Of a stretch of 64,000 nucleotides of DNA, positions 1 through 56,743 are shown in pieces (within the stretch, counting starts at the first letter, position 1; the number at the start of each line of letters is the position of its first letter). This DNA comes from Pratylenchus scribneri. Its lineage: Eukaryota > Nematoda > Chromadorea > Rhabditida > Pratylenchidae. A program made the position numbers and the translations under genes. The notes beneath the pieces were generated by a model that was given only the letters and a program-made list of their open reading frames with translations, did no database searches and was not told the DNA's origin. The DNA lies in contig JAQSEB010000109.1 in the NCBI GenBank assembly GCA_030063045.1, positions 310,001-374,000 on the forward strand. Reading direction: 5' to 3'.

Positions 1-1
1 A

Positions 2-3000
2 AATTTCTTGCGAACAATCCTCAACGCAAAGAGGGAAGATCCTGACAATTGGAACACAACAAAGCTGCGTGAAGAGCTCAAAGCAGCCGTGCAGCGTGAA
101 ACAGCCATTCAAGAGGTTATGTCCGAATACAATATGGACCAATCCTCGTCGCATTCTCAAAACCGGTCAAAAGGTGCACCGGGATTCAAGAGACATTCGC
201 AAATCTCCTCGGTTGTAGAGGGAGACAAATTAAAACATGCCGGAGGCAAATACAATTCAAAACCGGCAACAGTTCCAAAGGATCAGCCAATTACAAAGCC
301 AAAACAGAAAGGCTATAAACCCCAATCATGGGACCAAACAAACAAGGCAAAGAAGCCAGAATTCGGCCGAAATAAAGGCCAAGGGCAGCCACAAATACAA
401 AGTCCAGCATCGCAGCGGCAAACTCATTCACAAGGCCAGACGCAAGGCCAAACCGAAACCAAAGGTCCCGGCCCCTGTGCATTTTGTGGGGAGCAACATT
501 GGCATAATATGTGCCCCAAATACACAACTCATCAGCAACGAATCACAATAGCTCGTGAAAAGAAACTTTGTCTGCGCTGCCTTCGGGCAAATCACATTGC
601 CAAAGATTGCCCTCGACCGGCTACATGCTACAATTGTCGGAAACCGCATCCAACGGCATTATGCCGAAGCAAAGAGAGGCAACACACACAAGTGTCATCT
701 TTGATGGAGCAACAAATGGGAGAAATGCTCCAGCTCCTGAAGGAGCATAGCGTGACACCAGAAGTCCAAAACAAAAATGATGGACAAATCACTGCGCAAT
801 GCAATTCAATTCACCAGGATCCATGCAACCAAGTACTACTCATGACGATTGAAAGCACAGTCTTCAATCCAACTGACCCAACCAAAAATATGGTTGCGAT
901 GATATTTATTGATCCGGGTGCCCAGCGTTCTTTCATTACTTCAGAAGCGGCTATGAAGCTGGGATTGTCGAGCATGACAAAAGAAGAATGCTATTTGACT
1001 GCGTTTGGAGAAAAGGTGCCCAAGCGCTATCAAACGGACCTAGTGAAGCTAGGATTCCTCTGCCCAGGGGGCGATCGAATGATCATCAATTTGAATAAAA
1101 TGAAATTCCTTGTAAAGGAAATGCCCATGATTTCGCCAACAGAATTGGATACCGCAGAGATTCGACGGCACAAACTCAGAATCCCAAAATTGAGGGAACC
1201 AGAAATACTTTTGGGCATGAACATATTTAATCAACTCAAAGTCCACGAAGAAGGGCAATTGCCTAGTGGTTTTTCAATGTGCAACTCTCGATTGGGACCA
1301 CTCCTCTGTGGAGAAGGACAACTCGAATATGTGTCATACAATGACAATATTACATATGTTTTGAGTGTGCACGAACATGAAAATGTCGAATTCAGCTCCA
1401 AGCCAGATGATATGACAATGGATAATCAAATACATGAATTCTTTGGCCTAAATACAATAGGAATGGATGATGCAGCCGAAGCCAATGACAAAGAAGAAAT
1501 TATGCTACAATTCCGCAAAAATCTGACATTCATTGATGGCAGATATCAAATGGCATTGCCTTTCAATCATTTGGTCGATAATCTGCCAACAAATTATAAA
1601 CAGGCCAAGGCCAGACTGGCACAAACTTTGAAAAAACTCAAACAATTAAATTTGGTTGAACAATATGACAAAATCATTCGCGATCAAGAAGAAAAAGGAA
1701 TGATTGAACGAGTTGTTCAAGCCGACGAAAGAAGCGGACCAGTTCACTATTTACCGCACAGAGCGGTCATCAAAGAAGACAAGGCCACGACAAAAATCAG
1801 AATCGTGATGGACGCAAGTGCCAAGCCAAAAGGGATACCCAACGCTCCATCACTGAATGATTGCCTCCACACAGGACCACTCTTATTGAAAGAGTTGGTC
1901 GGAATTTTACTTCGTTTTCGAAGGATGAAAAATGCCATATTGGCAGATATTGAGAAGGCCTTCCTTCAACTTTCGGTCCGAATTCAGGATCGAGATTGCA
2001 CCAGATTCCTCTGGTTCGATGATCCAAAGGAAGTGGATCCAGAAAACATTCATTTTGAAAAATGCATTATTTTTCGATTTTGCCGTGTCAGTTTCGGCTT
2101 GACAGTGTCACCCTTTCTCCTCAATGCCACAATTCGTGAGCATTTGATGTTGTTCGATTTGCCTTTGGCACATATTATTGAAGAAAATCTTTACGTCGAC
2201 AATATTTTGATCGACGTTGACGCTGTTCAAAAGGAAAGGAACCTCTCCATTCAAGATATTTGTGAAGAAGCCAAAACATTGTTCGAATCAGGAGGGATGA
2301 CTTTGCGAGAATTTTTCTCGAATGACCCAAATGCAATCAGTGGATTGCCGGAATCAGATTTGGCCAAAAATCAAACAGAAACAAAAATCCTTGGCATCAA
2401 ATGGACCACCAAAGGAGATGAAATTCATTTCATATGGCCACAATTTTTGGCAGACACAAAACTCACACGAAGAAGTTGCCTTTCGCATATCGCATCACTC
2501 TATGATCCGCTTGGCTTGCTCTCCCCAGCTCTTCTTCCCGCAAAAATCTTCCTTAGAAAAATTGTTGACACCCAATCAAAATGGGATGAAGAAGTTAGCA
2601 AAGAATTGAAAAAAGAATGGCGAGAAATTATGGAACAATGGAGGGGTTACAACGGAGAGCCAATCACCATGACTTTTCCAAGACACGTACCCAGTCATGA
2701 AGTCAGTGAACTCCATTGTTTCACTGACGCAAGCGGTCATGGGCTCGGCATTGCCATTTACCAACGCTCTGTATTGCCTGAAAAGGCACAGAGTAATCTC
2801 ATTTTCGCCAAAAGTTTGAATAAACCAAAAAATGTGCATGAACTCGAAAGCACGATTCCTAAAATGGAATTACAAGCACTCACCCTTGGGGTGAAAGCTG
2901 CCAAGTTTGTCCAACAGCAACTTCGAATAGAATCAGGGCAAATCACAATATGGACAGACAGCCTTTGTTGTGTGGAACGACTCAAACAATCGAAAAAATA

Positions 3001-6000
3001 CGATCGTTTCATAACAAATCGGCTCAACAAAATCCGTGGCACATTCCAAGTCAAACACGTTTATGGCCAAGATAATCCGGCAGACGTGGCCTCCAGAGGA
3101 GCCAGTCCACGAGATTTGGTCATGAATCTATTATGGAGATTTGGCCCCGAATGGCTTGCCAAAGACAAGAATCGATGGCCAACTCCGTTGGATGAATATC
3201 AGCCTGGAGATGAACAAAAGGAATGTGCCAGTGAAGAATCAAACCAACCTTTCTTTGGGCTGGAAATCAATCTAATAAAAGATGATCCTCCCTCATTCAT
3301 TGTTGCCGAAAATTTCACAAATTGGAAGCATTTAAGAAATGCAACTTATTATTTGTTCAAATTCATCAATAAAATCTCCTCCAAAGTGAAATTGGAAGGA
3401 GAATTGGGCAAACAAATTCAACTCATGCCGAAAACTTTGGGTCCACCCACGGCAAATGAATTGTATGGAATTGTTGAAAATTTCCTTCTTGCAGAAGCTC
3501 AAAGGATGTACCCACCAACAGAAACGCAGCAAAAGGATCTGCGTATTTTCAAGTCCCAAGGATTATTCCGTTGCAAGGGACGGCTGAATCAAGCTGATTT
3601 AGCTGAGGAAGCAAAAAATCCAATATTTCTTTCGGAAAAAGCTTGGATTACCAAACTCATTGTTCTCGACCTTCACAAAAAGATGAAGCATTGTGGAGAA
3701 TCCACGCTTCTGGCAGCATTGCGGGAAAAATACTGGATTCCCAAGGGAAGAAAAACCCTTCGAAAAATCATCCACTCAAAGCAATATGGTTGCCTTCCAT
3801 GCAGGAAGTATAAATTGAAACCATATGCTTATCCGGAACCTCCGGATTTGCCAAAAAGCCGCATCCTCCGCGAACGCCCATTCGGGAACTGCGGGGTTGA
3901 TTATTTTGGTCCAATGATCGTGAAGGATGGCAAGGATGAAAGAAAGGCCTGGGGAGCCTTATATACTTGTCTCGTCACTCGTGCGATTCACCTTGACCTT
4001 GCCGATGATTATTCGGCAGAGGCTTTTCTTCGCACATTTCGGCGCTTCTGCGCCAGACGCGGAATTCCGAAGCTGATGCTTTCGGACAATGCCGGAAACT
4101 TCACATTGGGAGCAAAAATAATCGAATCCAGTTGGAGACACCAACTGATGGATGAGGCTACCCAAGCTGGGGCTGAGTGGAAGTTCATCACTCCCAGAGC
4201 ACCGTGGATGGGCGGAGCCTGGGAGCGGATGGTTGGGATCACAAAAAGATCCCTTATGCGAAGCATTGGAAAAATGCGACTCAGTCGCGATGAAATGCAA
4301 ACATTGCTTTGTGAAATAGAAGCAGTCGTGAACAGCAGACCCCTCACCTTTCAATCAGACAGCGAACCATTGAGAATCCTTCGCCCAATTGACTTTCTTT
4401 TGCCTTATGGCGACGTCGAAATCAAGACTCCTCTTTCGGAGGAAGATCCAAATGATCCGGATTATAATCCGAAGGTCCAAAGTGATCAAAAACTTCACAC
4501 AATGATGAGATGGGCATCAAAAAGGATCAACAAATTTTGGACAATTTGGCGAAATGATTATCTTCTAGCCCTCCGAGAAAGAGACATGCATTCAACAAGT
4601 GATAACAGCTACCCCAGAGAAGGGGATATTGTTTTAATTGAAGAGGAGGAGGAAGACCGATCAAAATGGGAATTAGGAAAAATCTTATCCCTGGTCAAAA
4701 ATAGGGATGGTCACCCTCGTGTTGCCAATATATTAAAAAATGGAAAAACTATGAAAAGAGCAATAAATCAACTCTATAAATTGGAAATTCCAGATCAATC
4801 AGTTCAAAATCCGGAGTCAAGTATTGTGAAAAGCACAGCATTGGCCATCATGAATCAAAATTTAAAAATGCCAACTTTATCCAAGGAAGCTATCATCGGT
4901 TTAAATGATTGGTCATTCAAACAAATTCGGCCAGACGAATGTGATGATAATGATGTGGTTTCGATGGGTGAAGCAAAACTCGACCACGGCCAACAAGAAA
5001 GACTCGAAGAGCTATGGAACACTGGAAAATATGCCAAATTTCTAATAGAAGTCAATGAAGCGGAAGCTCATGGCAAAAGGTTGATGAATCCAACAATGCC
5101 TACACGGCAATTGCCATTATCAAGCAAATTTTCATTGAGCAAATCAAAAATGAAAAGGCATCAAAAATTGAAGCATCAATCAACATCAAAAACAACAGAA
5201 ATGATGGCCTCTGTGACTGTGCAAAGTCGACCAGTTACCAATGAGCCCATGCAAGTCAGCAGCTTACCACCAGTGCATAAACCAATTCAAGCACCTGCAA
5301 TTGAACTCATTCAATCTGTTGCCGAGAAGCCAGTCCAGGCTAACATGTTGCCACTTTCGTTGGAGGCAGTTCAAGTAAGCAGTATGCCACCAGCAACAAA
5401 GCCAAATGAAGTTGGCAATTTGCTATCAATGGCAACGACCGAACAAGCTCAACTATTGGTATCGACAATTGGGTCGATTCAAATCCCAAATGAGGCGGAA
5501 AAATCAATTAATGTGAGCAGTTCACCACCTATTGGCGAAGCGGTTCAAGTCAGCAGTTTGCCTCCAGCTCATAAAACGGTTCAACCGGCTGAGAAAATAT
5601 CTGTTCAAATTGGTGAACGATCCACGGCAGTTGAAAATGATAAGAGCAATTCGAAACCGGACGCACCAATGGAAGAGGCCAATGTGACGCCAACAGAAGA
5701 TTGGACACCATTCTACCGGAAACCGGGATACAGAATGAAAAGGAAGAATCCCCTTGTGCCATCAAAGCATCAGCCTTACATGAAGGCAAGAGGAGATCGA
5801 CCTCGCCTACACACTTCTGGCTATAACATGCTCTTCCGTTCATTGGGTGGCAAAAAATGGCTGATTGAACAAAGTAAAAAGCGAGCCATTCTCAATCAAT
5901 TGTCTATTGAAAAAAGAATTGAATTCTTGGACAAAGAAGAAAGAAAATTGCAAACTGCCCAAATCACTTCGTCTCTGGCCAAGGAAACTCCAAAGCCAAC

Positions 6001-6070
6001 AGCTCCCGATTTAATGACGCCTGAAAAATTGGCAAAGAGAAAAAGGGAGGATTTGGAAAGAAAACTCTAA
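2..6070 (+). CDS. BEL/Pao Gag-Pol polyprotein, 5'-partial
   Basis: The frame is open at the window edge, so the first codons seen are internal to gag. Counting TTG at 8 as residue 1, three zinc knuckles begin near residue 157 (C-x2-C-x4-H-x4-C types). A retropepsin-like motif lies at D302 and reads DPG rather than the usual DTG/DSG. The RT catalytic box is YVDN at 729-732, where YVDD would be expected. RNase H acidic residues sit in TDAS (D907), the PKMELQ and WTDS segments and NPADVASRG. The integrase has an H-H-C-C zinc site (about residues 1220-1272) and catalytic D1298, D1360 and E1406. A long C-terminal tail (about 1600-2020) holds degenerate VQVSSLPP-like repeats and a very basic end. 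It would make the virus-like core, cDNA and integrase. The altered protease and RT motifs could be natural variants or signs of decay. Confidence 0.93.
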   Translation, partial: NFLRTILNAKREDPDNWNTTKLREELKAAVQRETAIQEVMSEYNMDQSSSHSQNRSKGAPGFKRHSQISSVVEGDKLKHAGGKYNSKPATVPKDQPITKPKQKGYKPQSWDQTNKAKKPEFGRNKGQGQPQIQSPASQRQTHSQGQTQGQTETKGPGPCAFCGEQHWHNMCPKYTTHQQRITIAREKKLCLRCLRANHIAKDCPRPATCYNCRKPHPTALCRSKERQHTQVSSLMEQQMGEMLQLLKEHSVTPEVQNKNDGQITAQCNSIHQDPCNQVLLMTIESTVFNPTDPTKNMVAMIFIDPGAQRSFITSEAAMKLGLSSMTKEECYLTAFGEKVPKRYQTDLVKLGFLCPGGDRMIINLNKMKFLVKEMPMISPTELDTAEIRRHKLRIPKLREPEILLGMNIFNQLKVHEEGQLPSGFSMCNSRLGPLLCGEGQLEYVSYNDNITYVLSVHEHENVEFSSKPDDMTMDNQIHEFFGLNTIGMDDAAEANDKEEIMLQFRKNLTFIDGRYQMALPFNHLVDNLPTNYKQAKARLAQTLKKLKQLNLVEQYDKIIRDQEEKGMIERVVQADERSGPVHYLPHRAVIKEDKATTKIRIVMDASAKPKGIPNAPSLNDCLHTGPLLLKELVGILLRFRRMKNAILADIEKAFLQLSVRIQDRDCTRFLWFDDPKEVDPENIHFEKCIIFRFCRVSFGLTVSPFLLNATIREHLMLFDLPLAHIIEENLYVDNILIDVDAVQKERNLSIQDICEEAKTLFESGGMTLREFFSNDPNAISGLPESDLAKNQTETKILGIKWTTKGDEIHFIWPQFLADTKLTRRSCLSHIASLYDPLGLLSPALLPAKIFLRKIVDTQSKWDEEVSKELKKEWREIMEQWRGYNGEPITMTFPRHVPSHEVSELHCFTDASGHGLGIAIYQRSVLPEKAQSNLIFAKSLNKPKNVHELESTIPKMELQALTLGVKAAKFVQQQLRIESGQITIWTDSLCCVERLKQSKKYDRFITNRLNKIRGTFQVKHVYGQDNPADVASRGASPRDLVMNLLWRFGPEWLAKDKNRWPTPLDEYQPGDEQKECASEESNQPFFGLEINLIKDDPPSFIVAENFTNWKHLRNATYYLFKFINKISSKVKLEGELGKQIQLMPKTLGPPTANELYGIVENFLLAEAQRMYPPTETQQKDLRIFKSQGLFRCKGRLNQADLAEEAKNPIFLSEKAWITKLIVLDLHKKMKHCGESTLLAALREKYWIPKGRKTLRKIIHSKQYGCLPCRKYKLKPYAYPEPPDLPKSRILRERPFGNCGVDYFGPMIVKDGKDERKAWGALYTCLVTRAIHLDLADDYSAEAFLRTFRRFCARRGIPKLMLSDNAGNFTLGAKIIESSWRHQLMDEATQAGAEWKFITPRAPWMGGAWERMVGITKRSLMRSIGKMRLSRDEMQTLLCEIEAVVNSRPLTFQSDSEPLRILRPIDFLLPYGDVEIKTPLSEEDPNDPDYNPKVQSDQKLHTMMRWASKRINKFWTIWRNDYLLALRERDMHSTSDNSYPREGDIVLIEEEEEDRSKWELGKILSLVKNRDGHPRVANILKNGKTMKRAINQLYKLEIPDQSVQNPESSIVKSTALAIMNQNLKMPTLSKEAIIGLNDWSFKQIRPDECDDNDVVSMGEAKLDHGQQERLEELWNTGKYAKFLIEVNEAEAHGKRLMNPTMPTRQLPLSSKFSLSKSKMKRHQKLKHQSTSKTTEMMASVTVQSRPVTNEPMQVSSLPPVHKPIQAPAIELIQSVAEKPVQANMLPLSLEAVQVSSMPPATKPNEVGNLLSMATTEQAQLLVSTIGSIQIPNEAEKSINVSSSPPIGEAVQVSSLPPAHKTVQPAEKISVQIGERSTAVENDKSNSKPDAPMEEANVTPTEDWTPFYRKPGYRMKRKNPLVPSKHQPYMKARGDRPRLHTSGYNMLFRSLGGKKWLIEQSKKRAILNQLSIEKRIEFLDKEERKLQTAQITSSLAKETPKPTAPDLMTPEKLAKRKREDLERKL

Positions 6071-6073
6071 TGG

Positions 6074-9000
6074 ATGCAAAAAAGGGAACGGAATTATCTA
6101 CGAAGGGATGCTAAATGGGTGAAGGAAAGTGCAAAAAAGGGGCTCGAACTCTGCCCAGCTACGCCAATGTTTCCTATGCCAGATGAACCTTGTTCTTCTT
6201 CTCAAACTAAACAACGTGAACAGCCAAGAAGTCCAAGTGCAACCCGAAAACGATCCCGTTCGCGAAAGAGAAAAAGCCGCAGTCCCTTGAGAAAAAGAAG
6301 AAGTTGCAGTCCTTTGAGACAAAGAAAGAGTCGCAGTCCAAGGAGAAAAGAAAGTGCGAATCATCGTGCTCGGGACAAATCACCAAAGAAAGGCGAAGCT
6401 TCTGAAAAGCCGCCATCATCAACAGACAAAGGCCATTCAAGAGCCATTCTCAAGGCACTCTCCTATCATCAAAATTATCTGCCTTTCAATTTGTTCACCG
6501 AATGCGATTGGTCTCCGCAACACAAATACTGTACGCGATCAAATACCCTGGAGAACATGACAACAGGGCGGCTGAAAATGCCTGAATACCGCAATTATCG
6601 TGCAAATAGTATATTGATGACAATAATCCTCAGTTGGCTTGGGCGTCGACAAAATTTGCCACCGCAACAATGGCAAAAAAGCAAAAAACACCATCAAATG
6701 ATCACTGGTGAAATGAATTTGACCACAATGGAAATTGCAGAAAAACTCTACTATGAAGAATGGCAAACAAAGCCAAATAAACACTTTACTTATGATCATA
6801 TTGAAACAGCGTTAGAAAAATTTATTGCTTCGTGTAATTGGGTGGCATCATGCATCGAAAAACATCCTTACCAAGCAGCATTCATGAGAGACGGAAGAGA
6901 TGAAACAATGCATTCAAATGACAACGATCCCACAAGTGGATTTCCTCAATTTTTGGTGCACATAAACAAATTGGTGATGATCGTTTTGACAAATATGAAA
7001 AGAAAGCGTTACTTCCCAGAATCATGCCTCATGAAGGCACCAACAATTTGTATTGGCGATTATACTGCGGAAGTAACCAACCAATCAATTACATCGTCTT
7101 CCTGTTGGTTTGCCTATTACGGTGAAAAGGATGAAAGAAGCATGAGAGAAAAATTGTTTCCTGGTCACACAGTACAACGAGCAATATTTGCATTTCAACC
7201 AAAGGACCAAAATGACCTCACAGAACAAATTCGTGAAGGCATGTTGGATTTGAAGAAAGCGGGCCTCGAAGTTAACCTCATTTTGCAACACTCAAAGCAA
7301 CGAGATTGGGCCGCAATTCAAAAACGAGGAGGAAAATTCGCCGCCGAAGCCAAAGCAGGCTATTTTATCACAAATGGGGAACCAAAGGATAGAAAGGCAG
7401 TCCTCGATGAAATTCTACCAAAACAAACCAAAAATGATGAAGCATCGACTCAAGCGCCACCAGCCAATGCCAGTAAAGAAGCAAAATTAAAGTGGGCCCA
7501 AAAATACATTGCAATGCTTCAAATCATTATGGTTGCAATGATCTTCATGATGCAACCAATGTCAGTGAATGCCGCACCCATTTGGAAACCAAATTTTCCG
7601 GACACAGAAAATCTGCTTGGCATACCCATTTTTCAAATTGAAAAAAGAGGCCCACAAGAAAATTCAATTTCGGCCAGCACACAAGCATTGATCGATGAAT
7701 ATAAAAGAAAATTGAGAGAGCAACCTGATCAATTGCAGCAACACAGCAAAGACTTGGCACAAAAAGCTTGGAAAGAGCATCAAAAACAAATGGCGGAACT
7801 ATCATCAACTACAATAATGTCAACAACTACTCAATCTACAATTGAAGTGCCACAAAGCACCACAACCACCAAAGGAACATCATTCACGATCTATTTTCAA
7901 AGATCGACAAGTTTGAGTCCAACATCAACTATTCAAACGAGTTCAAAACAAAGTTCGGCACCCACAATTCAATCATCTACGACAAAGTCAAATCGAATGA
8001 CCACTCAAACTCGATTCCAAACAAGCACGCTGAATACAATGGCATCTCCCAGCTCATCGCCAGTTCAATCTTCAACAATGTTGTCCACAAATTACCAACA
8101 ATCCACAACACAATCAACGACAACGCGACAGTGGACTGGTCGACAAACATGGCGCCGGCAATACACCAGAACAGAGGAGAATCCCCATCACAAGAATGGT
8201 GATCCGGCTCTTCTCTGTCCCAATCAAGGTTCTTCAATATGGTCATTAAAATTGGGAGAGAACTCGCCGTTTTGTAAACCCTTACCCTCATTGAGTGCAA
8301 CTTGGAATGAAATGGGTGTCTACCTCTATGGAAGGATCATAAATCCCAAAAAGGTCGAAGATGCGATGCATTGTTCAGCCACAAAGACTATAAAGTCTTA
8401 TTACACAAATCTTTTGGGCGACGAAGTCAGCGATCCTCCGGTTCCATTAACATATTTTTTGGAAATTTCAAAACATGACTGCCTCAAAATGGTTGAGCAG
8501 CATGTATGCCCATTCTTCGATCCACCACAACCACTCAAATGGGAAAATCATGTTTGGAAAACCAACAATGCACTCATAATCGATTATCCGGGAAGGATTC
8601 ACAGTTTCTTCCTTGGAGGCCGGACCAGCGAAGCAATCAACTGCTTCTTGCAAAACGCGAGCTTGTATTATAGGCCGCATAACCTAAAATTGACTTCGCC
8701 TATACACCCGGTTGATGAATGTCACTATGAGAATCAATATAGTTTCCTTATGGACAATACTTCCCTAGTCTGGAATGCACATTGCACAAACCACAAATGC
8801 CAAACGTGTGACTTCGAATTCAAGGAATGGAGAAAAGGCGAATACACCGGCCCCAGCGAAAAAACCAATGCCATTTGGATATCCGACAACAAGGAACAGG
8901 CTTTGACATTTGATTTGAATGCCGAAAAAGTCACTGCATGTGACGATCTTGAGATTCGAATTGCAGAGCAAGGACTTGGAATTCGGCAAATTCAATTTCA

Positions 9001-9322
9001 AACTTTATTCGCAAACCAAACAGAGAGCAGACGCAAAAGAACAGTGACAGAAAGTCAACTCGCAACACAATTGACAGCAGCCCAATACAATACAAATCGA
9101 GCACTCATGCAATTATTTATGCAAGAATGTCGCCGTTCACAACGAACTACCAGTGCCACACTGCAAGCGCGTAAAATGCTCAAACAGAAAAGCCTAATGG
9201 CGCGATGGATCGGGGAGGAAACACTTGAGATTTGGCACTGCACTGATGTTCCTTTAAGCGATATCAATTATCGCGAATATGATGACATTTGTTTCAAATT
9301 CATCCCAGTAAAAGTCCGATGA
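6074..9322 (+). CDS. SR-rich region plus N-terminal part of an envelope-like glycoprotein (BEL/Pao)
   Basis: This 1082-residue frame starts two codons after the pol stop and in the same phase, so it may originally have been one polyprotein. Residues about 50-116 are Arg/Ser-rich with RSRSP-type dipeptides. Residues about 120-470 form a globular region I do not recognise. A hydrophobic stretch at about 477-500 ending near a small-residue site could be an internal signal peptide. It is followed by a Ser/Thr-rich mucin-like segment (about 576-690) and a Cys-containing ectodomain. A furin-type R-R-K-R lies at 986-989 (bases 9029-9040). Precursor cleavage by furin and a signal peptide are usual for viral envelope proteins. 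Several nematode and arthropod BEL/Pao elements carry captured viral glycoproteins, but I cannot say which viral family is the source. The frame ends at TGA 9320-9322, and coding-like sequence continues after it. Confidence 0.75.
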   Translation: MQKRERNYLRRDAKWVKESAKKGLELCPATPMFPMPDEPCSSSQTKQREQPRSPSATRKRSRSRKRKSRSPLRKRRSCSPLRQRKSRSPRRKESANHRARDKSPKKGEASEKPPSSTDKGHSRAILKALSYHQNYLPFNLFTECDWSPQHKYCTRSNTLENMTTGRLKMPEYRNYRANSILMTIILSWLGRRQNLPPQQWQKSKKHHQMITGEMNLTTMEIAEKLYYEEWQTKPNKHFTYDHIETALEKFIASCNWVASCIEKHPYQAAFMRDGRDETMHSNDNDPTSGFPQFLVHINKLVMIVLTNMKRKRYFPESCLMKAPTICIGDYTAEVTNQSITSSSCWFAYYGEKDERSMREKLFPGHTVQRAIFAFQPKDQNDLTEQIREGMLDLKKAGLEVNLILQHSKQRDWAAIQKRGGKFAAEAKAGYFITNGEPKDRKAVLDEILPKQTKNDEASTQAPPANASKEAKLKWAQKYIAMLQIIMVAMIFMMQPMSVNAAPIWKPNFPDTENLLGIPIFQIEKRGPQENSISASTQALIDEYKRKLREQPDQLQQHSKDLAQKAWKEHQKQMAELSSTTIMSTTTQSTIEVPQSTTTTKGTSFTIYFQRSTSLSPTSTIQTSSKQSSAPTIQSSTTKSNRMTTQTRFQTSTLNTMASPSSSPVQSSTMLSTNYQQSTTQSTTTRQWTGRQTWRRQYTRTEENPHHKNGDPALLCPNQGSSIWSLKLGENSPFCKPLPSLSATWNEMGVYLYGRIINPKKVEDAMHCSATKTIKSYYTNLLGDEVSDPPVPLTYFLEISKHDCLKMVEQHVCPFFDPPQPLKWENHVWKTNNALIIDYPGRIHSFFLGGRTSEAINCFLQNASLYYRPHNLKLTSPIHPVDECHYENQYSFLMDNTSLVWNAHCTNHKCQTCDFEFKEWRKGEYTGPSEKTNAIWISDNKEQALTFDLNAEKVTACDDLEIRIAEQGLGIRQIQFQTLFANQTESRRKRTVTESQLATQLTAAQYNTNRALMQLFMQECRRSQRTTSATLQARKMLKQKSLMARWIGEETLEIWHCTDVPLSDINYREYDDICFKFIPVKVR

Positions 9323-10234
9323 GGAGAAGACTGGAAACCAGCGTTCCTCGATCCAGAGTTGCGGATTCTTTCTGCAACTGCGCCAGTGGCCGATTGCAAC
9401 ATTTACCGATTTCATTATCTACAAATTGAGCGAAATCGATGGCTGAGAATCGACACAAAACATGGCACTTCAATGCGTATTGACCAGTCCAACATTCACG
9501 AATTTCAAGAGCACATGAAATTAACTGGCTTCGATATTTCGCCGAAAGGCTTCCATGAGTGGACATTATATAACAATACGGACATCACATTATTCACGCA
9601 TGTTGAGGAAAGTGCCAGATTCCAAAAATGGAAGGATTCAGTGAAACAAGAAGAGCACAACAGGGCAATGGCCCTTGGCAACATGCCAGGAGGGTTAAAG
9701 GGTGTGGTCGAAAATTGGTTACATGACCTCATCCAGTCCATCATCCATAAAATCATGCTGTTCAGCTGTGGATGGGCACTTTTCTTGTTTTTTCGAGACT
9801 TTCTCTGGCCAATTCTCCTTGCCAACCTATTCATGCCAATCATTTCAACAACGCGAGTTCTGTTGGGCATGCCACCATTAAAACGGAAAGGAAAAAAGAA
9901 AAGCAAACGGGAAAGCAGAAGCACAAGCGAGGACGAAAGAGAATTGGAACCACTCACGACACCGAAGCCATGCATCAAAAAACGAAAGGCACGAGTATCA
10001 AGGAAAAAATCGACATTGAAGCGAAGGAAAAGCCGAAAATCTACGGATTTCATTGAGGAAAAACAAAAGGAACCGTCACAAGAAGAAGAAGAAGAAGAAG
10101 AAAAGGACACAATAACGGAGCCGAAAAAGAGAAAACAATCACTTCACATGGACCTAATTTCACAAGTCGTCAAGTTTGCACCGGCGGGAGTTTCGAATAT
10201 CGACGATCCAGGAAAGGCTGGATCGAAAAAGTGA
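9323..10234 (+). pseudogene. C-terminal part of the envelope-like glycoprotein after an in-frame stop
   Basis: Reading continues in the same phase directly after the TGA at 9320-9322 with no compositional change, so this looks like the second part of the same glycoprotein. The first ATG is at 9359 or later, which would leave out the junction. Two adjoining hydrophobic stretches (bases about 9755-9800 and 9800-9850) look like a membrane anchor near the C terminus. A highly basic tail follows (KRKGKKKSKR-like), then an acidic Glu run coded by GAA repeats at 10081-10104. Ectodomain, anchor, then a cytoplasmic tail is the topology of a class I or III viral fusion protein. Whether TGA is bypassed or simply disables the element is unknown; I favour inactivation. 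Confidence 0.65.
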
Positions 10235-47575: not shown

Positions 47576-50500
47576 TTAGGCGATTGCTCCTTTATGAGTT
47601 AAGAATTCCATCAATGCTTCAATTTCCATATTGATGCTGGCTGTGGCTTTGCGAATTCTCTGTGCAATTTCATTGGTTTCCCCGTCGTCAAATGAGCGGC
47701 CGCAGAAACTGGCAACCATGGCTTGGGCGTGGGCATCATCACTAAATTTGTAAAGGGTAATATTTTTTGATACGCAAATTCTAATTTGTAAAAAAATTTT
47801 CGGAAAATCAAATTATGTACTTTTCCGTTATGAAACACCCTACTGAAAAATTATAACCACGTCCTGATACTTGATTTAATTTTGGCTGTAATCACGAATC
47901 TATTATCTTCATTATATAATATATAATATTATATTATATTGTTAAGATAAGGCCGATGCCGACTTTTACCAAGAAAAAATAGAGAGGAGTCCAAAGGTTT
48001 TCTGGTAGCAATAAAAATTTGTACATAGCCATAAATTGACAGTTCATGGAGCTGAATCGAATGGTACCATTTTTATTACTTTACTTCCAAATTCCAATAT
48101 AGGCAAGCTATGACCGAAAAGAAATATGTGTTTTGGTAGGGCATTTTATTCTTAATTTAATAATGGAATATTATCCAATAAAAGTTGTGTCATTTATTTC
48201 AGCTTTCCAAATTTTCTTTGTCAATTCACATTAATATGCTCATATCAAAAAAATATTAAAAATTACGCTTGGTTCTCCCTTAGATTTTCTTAGTAAAAGT
48301 CGGCATTGCCTTACCAAGAAATCTTGCCATGACGAAAATGATGTCGAATTCGTGAATAAGCACCGAAAATAGACTATTACGACATTTTCAGAATTTTTTG
48401 ATCGGTTGGTTCATAACGGTAAAATAATACCAAATTATGTATTCCAAATAATAGAAAATATTGGCAATGTTTGCTAGTTTCGTCAATTAGGCATACCTTG
48501 CAACGGAAATATTGCTGCCATTTTTGGCCCCTTTTGCTCCATCCGTTGAAGTGCCTCCACGCATAAGTAATTTATCCCTGAGTTCTACAAAAGAATTCAA
48601 ATTTTTTTTTATATTTATTTAAACCATGCATATCAATAAAAGATCGTCGCTTGCTTGGAGTTGAGCGAATTTTGTGAGGAGTCGCAGTCAAATCCAGCTA
48701 AAATTTAATAAAATTAATTTAAAATGGAAATCTATTAGTTTGCCCCAAAGAAGAATTAATTTACCCAAATTTTTCGTGTCAAAAAATAATAATTTGTTGA
48801 GGCCATATAATTTGGCCAAATCAGAATTCTTTAGGATTCTCTAAACGCTAGCCCCTTCCCATCCTGTTGCCCTGAATCTAACCCTGACTGAGTCCTAATA
48901 CCTAGTTATTTCCAAGATATATGACCTCAAAAATATAATATTTTTCGACATAAAACAATTAGGGTAAATTAATTCATTTAAAATTTGAATATTTAAAATT
49001 AAAATTTTATTACCTGTTTGAGTGCATCATTTAGTTCATTGCATTTGCCTCGAATTCTTTTAAATTTTATTAAATAAATTCCTTATTAAAATATGCTAAT
49101 TTTTACTCGGTATAATGAAGAATTGTATTCTTGACAATTTCATGGATTTCCGCAACCCAGAATTTCATTGAAAGCCCAAGTGCCCTGCGGCATTCATTGA
49201 TGAAGGCCTGCGATTGAGCTACGGCACGGTCCAAATTGTGATTGCCCCAGAGCTTAAATAAATAATTATTTCATGTAAATCATAAATTTTTTTTCTAAAA
49301 TTTTTATTTTTAATGTTAAAGCTGATAAAATATGGAAAAAAATATTAATAATTTTAGAATAATAAAATTATAAAAAATTCAATGTCTTTTTTTGCCTGCA
49401 AATATTCTCCCTTATGCTCAGGATGCGGAGCCCAATCCATTACGGCACTCCAATCCTTCATCAACAACGGTTCCACTTTGATGCCCGCTTGCAACATAGA
49501 CAGAATGCCCTGTTTTGTGTACAGGTCACCTCGGACCAAATGCGGATAACTGAAAATAAATAAAAAATTTAATAATTTTTGAATAATTTTATAGATAGAT
49601 TGTTTAAAAAATTGGAATATTCAAATAAAAATATAAAGCCTTACAGAAATTTGACGGTCATTCTGACGTCCACTCTGCTCAATTCTTTCCGCACTTTGGA
49701 GAGCAATAGGCCGAGTAATTTTGCGCAGGCTGAAAACAACAATTTATTTTATTTCAACAATATTCCCCAATTTACCTTTGTTCGATTTACATTCATCCAC
49801 AACTTCGCATTTTGGTTCGCAAGCTTGATGAAAACATGGACTTTTGGAGACGAAAATCACAATTTCGTACAAATCCACCTAAGAAAAAATTTTTTTAATA
49901 TTTTAAATATTTGATAATTTATAATTTATTTTTTAGTGAAAATTTTTTCTTAATTTTAGCCAATAAAATATATTTAAATTTTTTGGTATATTTTTTTTAT
50001 TTCTAAAAAAAAATGAAAGATAAATTTGTGAAATATGACAGTATTATTTTATCTAATTTTTAAAAAGAAAATTATTTTAAAATTTTTTAGATTTTAATTT
50101 ATTAAAATAAAAATATTATAAAATATATTCATAAAATTTTTGTACTTTACTTTATATTTGGAGATTAAATCATAGATGGAGGCGACCAACTGTTCCTCCA
50201 CATGCGGTTCACTTTTTGATTCATGGTAGAAATCCCCTCGATAAATGTAGTCATCGCCAATTAGCGTCACAATTAGGCCACTGAAAACCAAATTTCTAAT
50301 TATTAAAAATCTTCACACTCAATGAAAAATTTAAATGAAAGAAATAAATTCAAATTTTGGGAAAAAGACGGCAGAAATATTGAGAAAATCTGAAAATATT
50401 TTTATTAAATATGCTTTTGTATGTTTTATATAAATTAAATTTTTTAAAATTTATTTTGAGATTTAATTTTAAATATTTATTTAAAAAAAAGGAATAATTA

Positions 50501-53375
50501 GTTCAAAATTAACCTGCTGTCCTGCTTATGCTCAAGAAAACAATTCTGGACATGTTTTGGCACATGAAATTTGGATGCCCCATTCGAGCAATCTCCACCG
50601 CATTTACAGCTAAAAAAGAAATTTTTAAATAATTAATAAAAATAATATGAATTTAAATTAACCTGCTCGAACAAAATTCATAGACCCCACGGCATTGGCA
50701 TTCCTTTTTGCCGCATTGTTTCTTCCCTTTGGCACATTGGCATCTGGGAAAAATATTTAAAATGAATAATTTTTTAACATAATTTTCATTTAAAATAATT
50801 TTTGAATTACCCTTGAGCCGGTTTTTTCACTTTGATCGCCCGTTTCGGTGGCTCCTTATTCTTGCAAATTTGTTTACAATTGCAAAACTGAAAAAAATAT
50901 ATGAAATTATTATTTATAAATTAAATAAATTAATATTAAATATTTGGAATTAGAATACTAATTTTTAAACATAGTTTTTATTTTTAAAATATTAAAAAAA
51001 TTAATTTTTAAAAATGTAGTAAAATTAATTCTCTTTCCATAAGCCCTTGACTTCGTGGCTTTTAAAATTTAAATTCAATCAAAAAATTGAATTTGCCCGT
51101 TGGGCATGAGCAAAAATATTATTACTACAGTTGATCCCTTTAGTAAGATTTAATAAGATTTACGTTTGAGCAGGATTCTTTGATCCGAAGGCAATCGCAT
51201 CGTTCCGCTTTGGTGCAAACATTTTTGGCCGGTTTCGTTGGATCCGCCTCACAAGAGCACTAAAATGATTAATATGAATATTTTTAAATATTTTATAAAA
51301 TATTTCCAAAGAAATAAAAAACTAAATTTTTTTATATTGTCAATTTAATATTTTTAATACCTTGCAAATAGCTTGATTCAAGCAATCGCCACGATATTTT
51401 ATGTGCTCGCAGCGTTCGTCGCACATTCGGCGCATGGCAAAGCAAGGGCAAGAGTCGGAGCTGCATCGATTTTGCTGTAGAAAAATAATAAATTTATTTA
51501 AAAAATGTTAAATATCACCGCCATTGGGCAATCGCAGCAAGCTGGCGGGTCGGTTGTAACCGCATGGGACACTGCAAAAAATTTTTAAATTATTTTTTTT
51601 TATTTTTAAATTTTATTTATTTGTTTACTTGAATTCATGCCCTGATGAATTGGAGGACCGCCTTGGGGTGAAGACATTCCCAGCGTGAGGGTCGAAGTCA
51701 AATGTGAAGGATTCTACAGAATAGAAAATTATTTTTTATTAAAATATTTAATTTTTAAAATTAATAAAAAAATAAATTTAATTCTTAAATATTTTTGCCT
51801 CACTTGATGATGATAATGATGTGCCGGTGGGGTAGGGACAAGTATCAAAGAAGAGGAAAGATGATGAGTTCGATGCCCAACAAGACTAGTTGCCGCCGAT
51901 ACGTCAACACTGCTGCTTAAATTAATGGGAATCTATAATTAATTTACTGCAAAAAACATATAAAACCAAAATAATTATAATGGTTTAATTTTTTCCTAAA
52001 TTCACAAATCATACACCATTGAAAGAGCTAGTCAAAATGTATATAATTTCAATGGTAGGTATATAATTTGTTATTGTTTAGTCAAAAATTAATGGTATAA
52101 AACGGTTTAAACTGATTTTGTTTAGAGTGTAAAGTAAGTTAGAATTGGTTTAACCAATCAAACCATAATCAAAGTCTTGTAGAAATCAATCGATATAAAA
52201 TTTTTACGTAGAGGAAAAAATTCTGAACAGTTCTTTCCTTTCAAAATTAAATAAAATCAAAGTCAAAATTTTTATTTATTAGAAAATATTAATAAAAAAA
52301 TAATTTTTTATGCCAAGATCTAAGCTTTTAATTCTTTCCGAAACAGAAATTTAGAAACCTGCAAACTGATTGAGCGTCAGCAGCCGATAATGGGCCAATA
52401 CTGGAATATATCAGTGAGCCAGTTCCAGTGTGGGAACCAATTGTTGCGGTGCCACCAACATTTCCAACACCAGCAGCACTGTAAGGTTGTGATGAATTAC
52501 GCCAATAGGAATTGTAGCTGTAAAAAAAGAATATTTTACAAAATTTATGATTGCTTTTTTCTATTTATTTAATTCATTTAAAAATATTTTGTGCTCATTT
52601 ATCCATAAAAATATAATAAAAATAGTTAGTATTTAATGCGGAGAAAAAACACAGGCAAATATCAAAAAGAATAATGGAAATGCTGAAAGATTTTAAAGAT
52701 TCGGAAGTTTTTCTCATAATTAGGCTAATAAATTTTTTATCAATAAATAGAGCTTGTCAATCTCATTGAAAAGTATTGAATTGTTTTGGTTAAAAATAAG
52801 ACGGTATTAAAAGTTTTAAACTAATTTTCGTTTTTGGTTCAAAATTGAGATGGGATTAGTTTAAGTTATTCCAAAACATAATCAAATAATACATCTTGTG
52901 AGATCTATCGACTAATTTATAAAATCTCTGAATATTTTTCCATAAAAATAGGTATATAAAACGTTAATTAATTTCAAAATAATCAGTACCAATCAAAATT
53001 GTGCTGATAGCATTGATGATGCTGGGGATGCCTTGTGGGTTGATGTGTTGAAGCGGCCGCCGCTCCTGCGTTAGGTGGACCAGTGGAAACGGAACGAGGA
53101 TGCGCTACAGGCTTTTGGGGTGAACCAAAATCGACAACAGCGCCTAATAGAAAATTGTTACTTTCTCATTTTTGTGAGGAATAAAGAGTCGTTTTTATTA
53201 TTTAAATTTTATAATCCAATTTTATTAAAAAATCACCGGTTGAACTTTTGTCTGCTGTTGCTGTATTATTGCCGTTTTTATTATTGTTTCGGCTGTCGGC
53301 GCCGTTAGTCGTATGTGGATGATGTTGGGAAGAAGGCTGATGAGTGCTGGAGCCTCGTCTTTTTTCCCACTTTAG
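47576..53375 (-). CDS. CXC-domain / AID-APOBEC-like cytidine deaminase fusion protein, 20 exons (first exon uncertain)
   Basis: Exons: 53237-53375, 52990-53143, 52359-52517, 51804-51915, 51629-51713, 51519-51571, 51361-51474, 51164-51259, 50811-50887, 50663-50743, 50514-50609, 50151-50280, 49776-49878, 49645-49729, 49396-49549, 49107-49252, 49014-49056, 48625-48697, 48497-48584 and 47576-47741. They give 717 residues with every phase matching. Residues 1-225 are His/Ser/Asn-rich. About 228-385 hold three Cys-rich modules of the CXC type (for example C-x-C...C-x4-C-P-C-F-A-x4-C), which bind zinc and often DNA in LIN-54/tesmin, E(z) and MSL2. Next comes a deaminase: H415-V-E417, then 28 residues, then S-P446-C447-x4-C452, and QGILSMLQAGIKVEPLLMKD (508-527) matching the AID/APOBEC GL..L..AGV...(M)..(K)D segment. 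Predicted role: cytidine deamination on nucleic acid. The start lies in an unseen exon; 54222-54353 is a candidate. Intron 15 has a GC donor; intron 19 holds a MITE. Confidence 0.82.
47819..48431. mobile_element. larger hAT-type MITE in the last intron of the deaminase gene
   Basis: The left end TACTTTTCCGTTATGAAACA and the right end GGTTCATAACGGTAAAATAA(TACC) are related to the 202-bp MITE at 23912. Internal words match too: AAAATGATGTC...AATAAGCACC in one is found reverse-complemented in the other. An 8-base target duplication AAATTATG flanks it (47811-47818 and 48432-48439). It also contains an internal inverted pair around GCCGACTTTTAC/GTAAAAGTCGGC. The copy is 613 bases and more decayed. 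Confidence 0.8.
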
Positions 53376-56300
53376 CTGGAAAATTTACAAGATTAAAAAA
53401 TTAAATTTTATGTGATTAATAAAAAATTAATTTAAAAAAATTAGTAATTAGTAATTAATAAATTGGAGATGAAGTAATTTAGAAATAAATATATTTTTCC
53501 GGAATTTTTTTTCTGTTTTGATTCTATTAACAACTAATAAAATCGGTGTAATTTTTAAGGGAATTTTGTTCAAGCGAAATACACTTGTAAGTTAACATTA
53601 ATATTTTCCACAGAGAGGAATTGCTTCTTTTTTTTATCCGGAGGGGATATGCTTTTTTAAGGGAACTTTGAGAAGTATGCAGAAAATTAGATTTATGATA
53701 TAGACAAAAATATGCTTTAATTATTTTTTGTTTTATTTTCCGGAAAACAGCATGTGATTTTTTAGCTAATTTGTTATCTATATTTTTGGCCTAAAAAGGA
53801 TTGAATATTTTTTTTAGGTTGACAGCAATTTTGACCACCCTAAGAAATGAGAAAGCATAAAGGTTTTTTGGATATTGTGTACAAAATAAATCCATTTTTA
53901 ATGCATAGCAAATGATGCGGAAATAATAGGAAGGGATAATAATATTGGAATTAATTTTTTGGAATCTTTGTTATTTTAATAATAGTAATAAAGAGATTAT
54001 TTTCTTTATTAGGCTTTACTAACAATTTGATTCACTTAAGATTAAAATTTTGAGTAATGAAAAAATTGCGAATATTTATTAATGAAAAGAAAAGGCAATT
54101 TAAAGAATGAATTCAATTTTTATACAAATCCCAAGGGAAAACACGAAGAAATTAATTCCGCGCGCCATTGAATGGGAGGCACATTTTTATGGCCACAAAT
54201 TAATTACATATTATTCCTAACACCCCACATCGATTCCCCACCCTCAGTCAGTCTGTTTGGCCTTTGGGGCCAACGCTTAAAGCCATTCTCTCCGAAGGGA
54301 GGCGAAGGCCAATAACAACCGCCGTTGCCGCCGCCGCCGCTTATTATCGACATTGCCACATTGACTATGTTTTGGTTGGCCAAGGGGAAGTGAGGGAGGC
54401 GAGGCAAAGCATTGAATGGGGAGGGGAGAATAGAAGGAAAGAGCAAAGAGTCTATAGATATAGAGCAGCTAATGGAAGCGGGGCCCCGGCGGGAGTCTCG
54501 CCTCCTTCCCCTCACAATCTATTCCTCTGAATTGGTGTCGGGGCCAACTTGACGCAATTAAAAGTTATCAAGGAATGAACCAATTTTAATGATTTTAATA
54601 TTAAAAAGAATAGACTTTTGGCTAGCCAATAATATTAATTTTATTTAATTTGATTTAAAATTGAGAAAGTTATGTGCAAAAAGCACCGAATTTGCTAATC
54701 CAATATTAAAAACATTTTAAAATGTTTTTTGGTCCTACTTCCATCAATTCTAAACCAATTTAAATAAAATTAATATCATTTTATAGCCAACTATCTGCTC
54801 TTTAATTTGATTAAAAAATCATCAAAATTGGTTCAGTTCTTGATGAGTTATAATAAACGGCGCCAAGTTGGGGCTTATCCCTGTGAGGAGAAAGGAAAGG
54901 AAAGAGGGGACGATATAGCAGAGCAAATGGAAAAGAAAGCCCCGCGGGGAGTCTCGCCCTCTTCCTTTCACTCAATTCATTGCCTTGCAGGGCGAGAATC
55001 GAGAATAGAGAGAGCCAAGCACAGAGCAGATGGACAAAGCCCACAGTTTGCATTTTGCATGGAGTATTGGCCCACCGAATGGTGGTGGTGCCGACGGGAT
55101 TGGAAAAGAAGACTAAAATAGTTAAGGGACTTGGATTTAGAGGCCAATGCCGCATTGTGTCCAAACAAAAATAGAAAAGGGGGGAATGTGGGCACATTGA
55201 ATGTGCGATGGCACACACACAAACAAATTATGGGGTTCATTGTGTGTTTTATGCGCTGACCGACTGAATTAGAATGGGTTCATTTTAAAAATGTGCAAGA
55301 ATCGAAGAATATTTTTGACTTGTAATATTTCGGTTTTTGGAAATTATTTAATTGAAATAATTTGGAAAATGAATTAAAATAAATAATAATTAATTTTCAA
55401 TAAATATATTGGAATTAATAGCAAAATAATTATAATGGTTTAATTTAAGGATTTTTCCTATATTCACAGAACATATATCCCTTTCAAGAACTATTGTTAT
55501 GTTATTATAAATGCCATATTTTAATCAAAATAAAAGTATATTAAACAATTTAAAATTGAAACCCATTTTGTTTTTGGTTTAAAAAGTAGATTGAAATGGA
55601 CATTAAATAATGTAAACCTATTTCATATTGCTATAAAATATGTAGAACTGGTTAAGCCAAAACAAACCAGTAAAATCATTTCTTCATTTTCAATAATTTT
55701 TCATCAAATAAAAGATATTTCCCAAAAAAATTAGAAGTAAAATTTACTTTTTTTTGCAAACTTATTAATATAGGTCAGTCGGTCAAAGCTCAAAGGCTAT
55801 GCAAATGTTTAGGCGGGAAGTCCTAAATGAGGATAAAAGCGGGGAAATGTGCGGGGAAAGTAGCATAAGAAAAGTGGCAATTTGAGAAGATTTGTGCGAG
55901 GACTGCAGTGATGACTGCTTTGGCTGATGAGTCCTCATTGAAGTGGCCTCAAAGGAGGATGGATGGGATTGAGGAGCGCAGATTTTCCGTGCCGACAGCC
56001 ACTGGCTCTCTGGGTTAAAGAATAGGACACACTCTAATGAAAATGGCAACTCAAATGAGGAAATGGTCTAAATCCATCCACAACAACATAGAAAGTTTTG
56101 GATTTGGAAGTGAAATAATTTTATTCATTAAAAAGACGCTCAAATGATGAAAAAGCCAAAATTACGGATCTGATTTTTAATTCGCAAAAATTACAAAATA
56201 AATGCTATTTTGTGAAATTTGCTAAAATATCGTGTAAGAATCTTAAGATAAGATAAAAAATAATTTTTGAATTTTTATTACATTTTTACAATGAAATTTT

Positions 56301-56743
56301 TTATTTTAAAAAGTTTCAAAATTGTAATGAGAAAAAGGTCAAAAAATTATTTCAAATGTATGAAATAAATGCTGAAAAAATTATTTATATGTTTTTTTCA
56401 TCAAATCTGATAAATATGGAAAAATAAGTTAAAAAAAACCCAAAAATCTCCAGAATTCGTTTTATACCTAATAAAGCATAAAGTCCTTAAGCAATGAATG
56501 AGTGAGGAAAGATTGATTGTTTATGCATGGACCTGAGGCGACTCTATTCTGACAATGAAAACGGCAAAACAGAAGGGGGAATGGGTACTCGAGGAAACCG
56601 GATTCATTTTTGAATAAAGGCTTATAGTTTTATGTAGTTATAGAGTGAAACAAAAATGACCATTGGTCATTGGATTTTGTGTGCAAATAATTAATTAAAT
56701 TGGTAATATAAAACTTATTTTAGCCATGTATCGAAGTGCATAA
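53376..56743. other. upstream region of the deaminase gene with GC-richer blocks
   Basis: 53376-54120 is AT-rich. At 54222-54353 on minus a frame starting ATG codes for 44 residues (MSIISGGGGNGG...) and ends at a possible GT donor in phase 0 with the first assigned deaminase exon, so it may be the first coding exon. Two GC-richer blocks (54200-54540 and 54850-55240) share words such as GGGAGTCTCGCC. ORFs at 55783-56049 and 54807-55240 show nothing recognisable. Confidence 0.45.

Follow-up and report, generated by a model that had tools for sequence, protein, structure and literature searches.

A Pratylenchus scribneri gene joining three CXC-like modules to an AID/APOBEC-type deaminase, with counterparts in other nematodes

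AID/APOBEC enzymes are familiar chiefly as immune mutators that evolve fast. Here we describe a gene of the root-lesion nematode Pratylenchus scribneri, lying on the minus strand of a 64,000-nucleotide stretch (contig JAQSEB010000109.1, positions 310,001 to 374,000; hereafter the window), whose exon chain joins three CXC-like modules to a deaminase domain of the AID/APOBEC type. We take ZK287.1 to be the Caenorhabditis elegans gene of this deaminase family. According to one account, the conservation of AID, APOBEC2 and APOBEC4 extends to invertebrates, nematodes included (PMC12993061), and another credits Iyer et al. (2011) with identifying, in Nematostella and C. elegans, putative deaminases of nucleic acid whose similarity to AID is very low (PMC5956068); the C. 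elegans protein among them is presumably an orthologue of the one described here. One listing of genes with higher levels in earlier neurons than in later ones, their functions being diverse or uncharacterised, includes ZK287.1 (PMC12667811). CDD-2 of C. elegans, proposed as the editor of svh-1 mRNA, shares with the present protein the standing of a candidate nematode C-to-U RNA editor and differs from it in clustering with cytosine nucleoside deaminases; the paper that makes this proposal also states that there is no biochemical evidence of editing in animals (PMC11305532).

The literature was searched mostly at the level of titles and abstracts; among the papers listed, none was recognised as describing a CXC-deaminase fusion, an earlier description being possible, and no confirmed AID/APOBEC editing in nematodes was found. 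The original prediction, made from the letters of the window, was not aware of any description of the architecture. This holds for the fusion as far as that search reaches, but not for its parts, since homologue records name one or the other domain and the C. elegans deaminase was noted in 2011 (PMC5956068).

The reassembled chain comprises 20 exons (window 53375..47576; 2154 bases with the stop, 717 residues), and its splice phases agree along the whole length. Every intron is GT-AG but the one that follows exon 15, which is GC-AG; its donor (window 49394..49395) reads GT in both other copies of the gene in the genome (L009 and the homeologue L010), and the GC is probably a splice-site change in the window copy. 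We consider the gene end at 47576 to be right because homologues, which extend through every domain, run on into exons 17-20, and an earlier end, at a TAA that lies in frame behind exon 16, was ruled out on the same ground. No ATG directly followed by GT occurs within 53376..56500, and the model is given without a start codon. Its features, in window coordinates, are as follows.

51629..53375, minus strand: N-terminal His/Ser/Gln-rich extension, residues 1-216, start codon not found (exons 1-5; from the exon chain, homologues and homeologue L010)
51361..51571, minus strand: CXC-like module 1, CCDC...C-x4-CPCF-x5-C-x3-C (exons 6-7; exon chain, alignment)
50811..51259, minus strand: CXC-like module 2, ERCDC-x6-C-x3-C-x-C-x3-C-x-N (exons 8-9; exon chain, alignment)
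50514..50743, minus strand: CXC-like module 3, GCQC...KECQC-x6-C-x3-CKC-x3-C-x-N, and linker into the deaminase (exons 10-11; exon chain, alignment, weak Pfam TCR match)
49107..50280, minus strand: AID/APOBEC deaminase domain, residues 379-595 including the end of exon 11 (exons 12-16; APOBEC_N, fold match of homologue models)
50196..50204, minus strand: H415-V-E417, predicted catalytic (exon chain, alignment)
49819..49842, minus strand: zinc motif S445-P-C447-F-H-Q-A-C452 (exon chain, alignment)
49396..49549, minus strand: loop-7-like YPHLVRGDLYTKQ, then GILSMLQAGIKV...KDW, with the GC donor (exon 15; exon chain, homologues)
47576..49056, minus strand: C-terminal tail with LDLTATPHKIRSTPSKRRS, then predicted helices with CGRSFDD-x-ET and the stop codon (exons 17-20; homologue conservation)

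Upstream of the chain, a block at 53693..54944 is 79% identical to homeologue L010 and includes a mismatch-free stretch of 59 bases (54177..54235), a candidate for a conserved promoter or non-coding element.

The Pfam family APOBEC_N (PF08210) matches the whole model at 87.7 bits against a cut-off of 25 (E 1.2e-24), and because of this E value, and because homologues span every domain, we do not regard the deaminase match as chance. The motifs follow one another as H415-V-E417, 28 residues, P446-C447-x4-C452 and, in exon 15, GILSMLQAGIKV...KDW, with the predicted catalytic and zinc residues kept. In a fold search, structure models of homologues match AID/APOBEC structures, APOBEC3 among them, and it is on these models that the deaminase fold is assigned. 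Our own exon chain has H415, E417, C447 and C452 exactly where the original prediction had placed them, and the AID/APOBEC fold with zinc held by H415, C447 and C452 that it had proposed agrees with the gene model, the orthologues and the fold search. Other searches gave less: NAD1 (PF18778) scored under its cut-off (19.8-23.5 bits against 27), the single NCBIfam match, RibD, was also below cut-off, the deaminase as a single sequence found APOBEC3G in the PDB at an E of only 0.013, and a PDB profile search with the whole-family alignment gave no match at E up to 1. With AID/APOBEC proteins, then, the domain shares the fold, HxE, PC-x4-C, SxSPC and the AG-x-x-V segment; added here are the N-terminal CXC-like array, the helical C-terminal tail, very slow evolution and three extra cysteines, invariant and located behind the zinc motif (C116, C122 and C128 in the numbering of homologue P0026), a Cys-rich stretch in which a second zinc may sit close to the active site. 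We know of no vertebrate AID/APOBEC member that has these three cysteines, nor, to our knowledge, does CDD-2 carry a CXC part.

An alignment of the CXC part of ten sequences (A4) has 27 invariant cysteines, and by inspection modules 2 and 3 show CxC ... CxC-x6-C ... CxC-x3-C-x-N spacing, a cysteine pattern that they share with the TSO1-type CXC of LIN-54/Tesmin (PF03638, Pfam TCR). They differ from that type in falling below the Pfam cut-off, in forming an array of three modules, not two, and in having no Tyr before the central CxC, a residue that is a minor-groove contact in LIN54. The LIN-54-like loci of the same genome do have it (KLYCDC and KNYCEC at one locus; this applies to both modules for L011 and to the first for the other loci read), whereas R and E stand there in modules 2 and 3 (ERCDC, KECQC), and for this reason we call the modules CXC-like and keep them outside TCR. 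Module 1, with its CPCF, may resemble the CXC of EZH2/MSL2 type. The TCR matches above cut-off in the genome are LIN-54-like loci (L011-L016) on four contigs (C57, C114, C194 and C200), and none of the 11 TCR matches listed for the genome, among the best candidates, lies on the contigs that carry the deaminase gene copies.

Homologues were found by a single-sequence search (47 proteins; all 32 with an organism name are nematode), by a profile search (64 proteins; 48 of 48 named ones nematode) and with an alignment of divergent rows, A5 (ten proteins, eight nematode and two without an organism name, P0019 and P0065, the latter new). Among named matches none came from outside Nematoda, in searches that need shared five-residue words and similar length and so do not show absence. 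SPC is present in 51 of the 65 pooled homologues, SPC with a correctly spaced HxE in 46 and the third CXC motif in 43, and 37 have the third CXC motif and HxE-SPC in one chain. Five have SPC without HxE (P0028, P0029, P0036, P0054 and P0056), the first four of which look like incomplete gene models. CXC part, deaminase and tail occur together in Trichuris, Trichinella, Soboliphyme, filarids, strongylids, Strongyloides, Caenorhabditis, and cyst and root-knot nematodes. The claim that three CXC-like Cys modules and the deaminase belong to a single gene is thus borne out by the gene model and the orthologues alike.

A tree of 25 rows splits six fast-evolving proteins (clade B: Plectus, Soboliphyme, two Trichuris, Trichinella and P0065) from a slow clade (A) with support of 100/100, and Soboliphyme, Trichuris and Trichinella each have members in both; long branches meet in this tree, which makes the branching order within the fast clade uncertain. 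The N terminus (residues 1-227) is largely kept in only three of 20 compared homologues, all tylenchid (P0048-P0050, from Meloidogyne, Heterodera and Globodera; 49-57% identity over 158-190 residues), and a His/Ser-rich N terminus is also present in homeologue L010. In public records several homologues are named for one domain or the other, several as "CRC domain-containing"; Trichinella P0051-P0053 and P0060 carry odd names (acyl-CoA dehydrogenase fusions or adhesion G-protein-coupled receptor).

Identity to the window model is 95% for the deaminase and 93% for the tail in Meloidogyne, 88% and 82% in Acanthocheilonema, 85% and 80% in Caenorhabditis bovis, 67% and 61% in Trichuris muris, and 59% and 48% in Soboliphyme. 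Searching the P. scribneri genome (276 contigs, 227,248,964 bases) with a piece of the protein hit three contigs and yielded three gene copies, those of the window, L009 and L010; APOBEC_N matched the genome once, over the size of an exon, in one of the two copies outside the window. In L010 the frame stays open up to the same stop, and in L009 it does so from exon 4 onwards. Over exons 4-20, synonymous and amino-acid changes between pairs of copies number 73:1, 93:3 and 75:5, with ratios of nonsynonymous to synonymous rates (dN/dS) of 0.003, 0.007 and 0.015. The gene is under purifying selection. Exons 1-2 are less constrained (dN/dS 0.10, compared without L009, whose stretch starts inside exon 3). 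The LIN-54 copies were dropped as a yardstick, since one to three synonymous differences in 33 sites are too few, and these ratios stand without a yardstick gene from the genome. Closely similar fused proteins across roundworms suggest a conserved basic job and not a fast-changing immune weapon.

The reading that we find most likely, with about even confidence, is that of an active AID/APOBEC-type deaminase that is tethered and has an endogenous substrate. Catalysis, nuclear place, tethering and substrate are here what we infer: the protein would act in the nucleus, the triple CXC-like zinc array would tether the deaminase to DNA or chromatin, possibly to RNA, the helical C-terminal tail would serve as a second tether through partner binding or dimerisation, and cytosine would be deaminated in single-stranded nucleic acid (DNA or RNA) at limited endogenous sites. 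That the CXC part targets the deaminase to its substrate is plausible; the sub-cut-off TCR score and the missing tyrosine limit this idea, which came with the original prediction. A methylcytosine role is unlikely, because cytosine methylation is reported absent in Meloidogyne incognita and C. elegans by work cited in PMC5934874.

Several points weigh against this reading. Pfam TCR matches two stretches at only 14.7 bits against a cut-off of 23.5, and a PDB profile search with the CXC alignment, at E up to 10, matched no chain. All three P. scribneri copies read FHQAC, whereas the motif is FHQDC, YHQDC or, in one case, FHQNC in the 51 homologues that have it, and HxE is missing from the Plectus paralogue P0056, which reads HAS-E. 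Kept zinc residues are in any case no proof of deamination, for which APOBEC2 is the precedent. Lastly, a C-to-U edit of the C. elegans gld-2 mRNA, suggested in 2004, is described as unsupported in embryo RNA-seq (PMC6581053).

Some of these points lend themselves to a second reading, which we consider unlikely, in which the protein resembles APOBEC2: the deaminase fold would bind nucleic acid or chromatin, zinc would serve stability, and the protein would regulate transcription or chromatin and deaminate little or not at all. The loss of HxE in P0056 and the altered residue beside the zinc cysteine in P. scribneri favour it, and conservation over the whole length (CXC part, tail and the Cys-rich stretch that follows the zinc motif) would fit a subunit with many contacts in a complex. 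However, the listed clade-A proteins that span the site keep the Glu of HxE, as do all but one of the six clade-B tree rows, which counts against a pure scaffold, since such a protein would be expected to lose Glu more often.

Third, and improbable in our view, comes a restriction factor against retroelements or viruses, like vertebrate APOBEC3. The presence of APOBEC3 structures among the fold matches would agree with it, as would a retroelement-rich genome (150 reverse transcriptase (RT) domain matches scored of 409 candidates), and the fast clade B could be such a branch. Fast evolution is typical of APOBEC3 restriction factors, and the dN/dS of the gene copies together with conservation across the phylum is unlike that of arms-race genes. 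Transitions are balanced over 43 pairs among the best 30 of the 150 scored RT loci (1240 G/A against 1207 A/G; 1079 C/T against 1090 T/C), and no strong strand-biased hypermutation was seen in these pairs, at most about 2:1. Five of 86 uncorrected tests fall below 0.05 (smallest 0.008), three of them involving L036, in which A-for-G exceeds G-for-A about twofold against three relatives (35:17, 40:23 and 37:18), an excess partly shared with L034; with the 43:21 of L032 against L026, this is a weak hint in favour. Because high scores select for intact copies, the test carries little weight in either direction. Defence against retroelements, an idea of the original prediction, is weakened by the extreme conservation and by the lack of strong hypermutation in the tested copies.

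That neighbouring CXC-protein and deaminase genes have been read as one, for which the missing start codon and the fusion of some homologue records to unrelated genes (P0051-P0053 with acyl-CoA dehydrogenase) could be cited, is so improbable that we reject it, given homologues with both parts in one chain, compatible splice phases and the open frames of L010 and L009.

Elsewhere in the window, positions 1..10000 have a G+C of about 0.41-0.44 and a strong A-over-T skew, and the rest about 0.24-0.37 G+C.

Returning to the tethered, active deaminase, we would tentatively extend it to a proposal that is possible if somewhat unlikely: a nucleic-acid deaminase present throughout the phylum, needed in development and equipped with a chromatin tether of its own may edit defined endogenous sites, which would amount to a constitutive, non-immune AID/APOBEC pathway in nematodes. 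A roundworm enzyme that changes so little and has a built-in zinc array would offer a test case for AID/APOBEC roles outside immunity, and confirmation of the C. elegans orthologue would make the question directly addressable in a standard laboratory animal.

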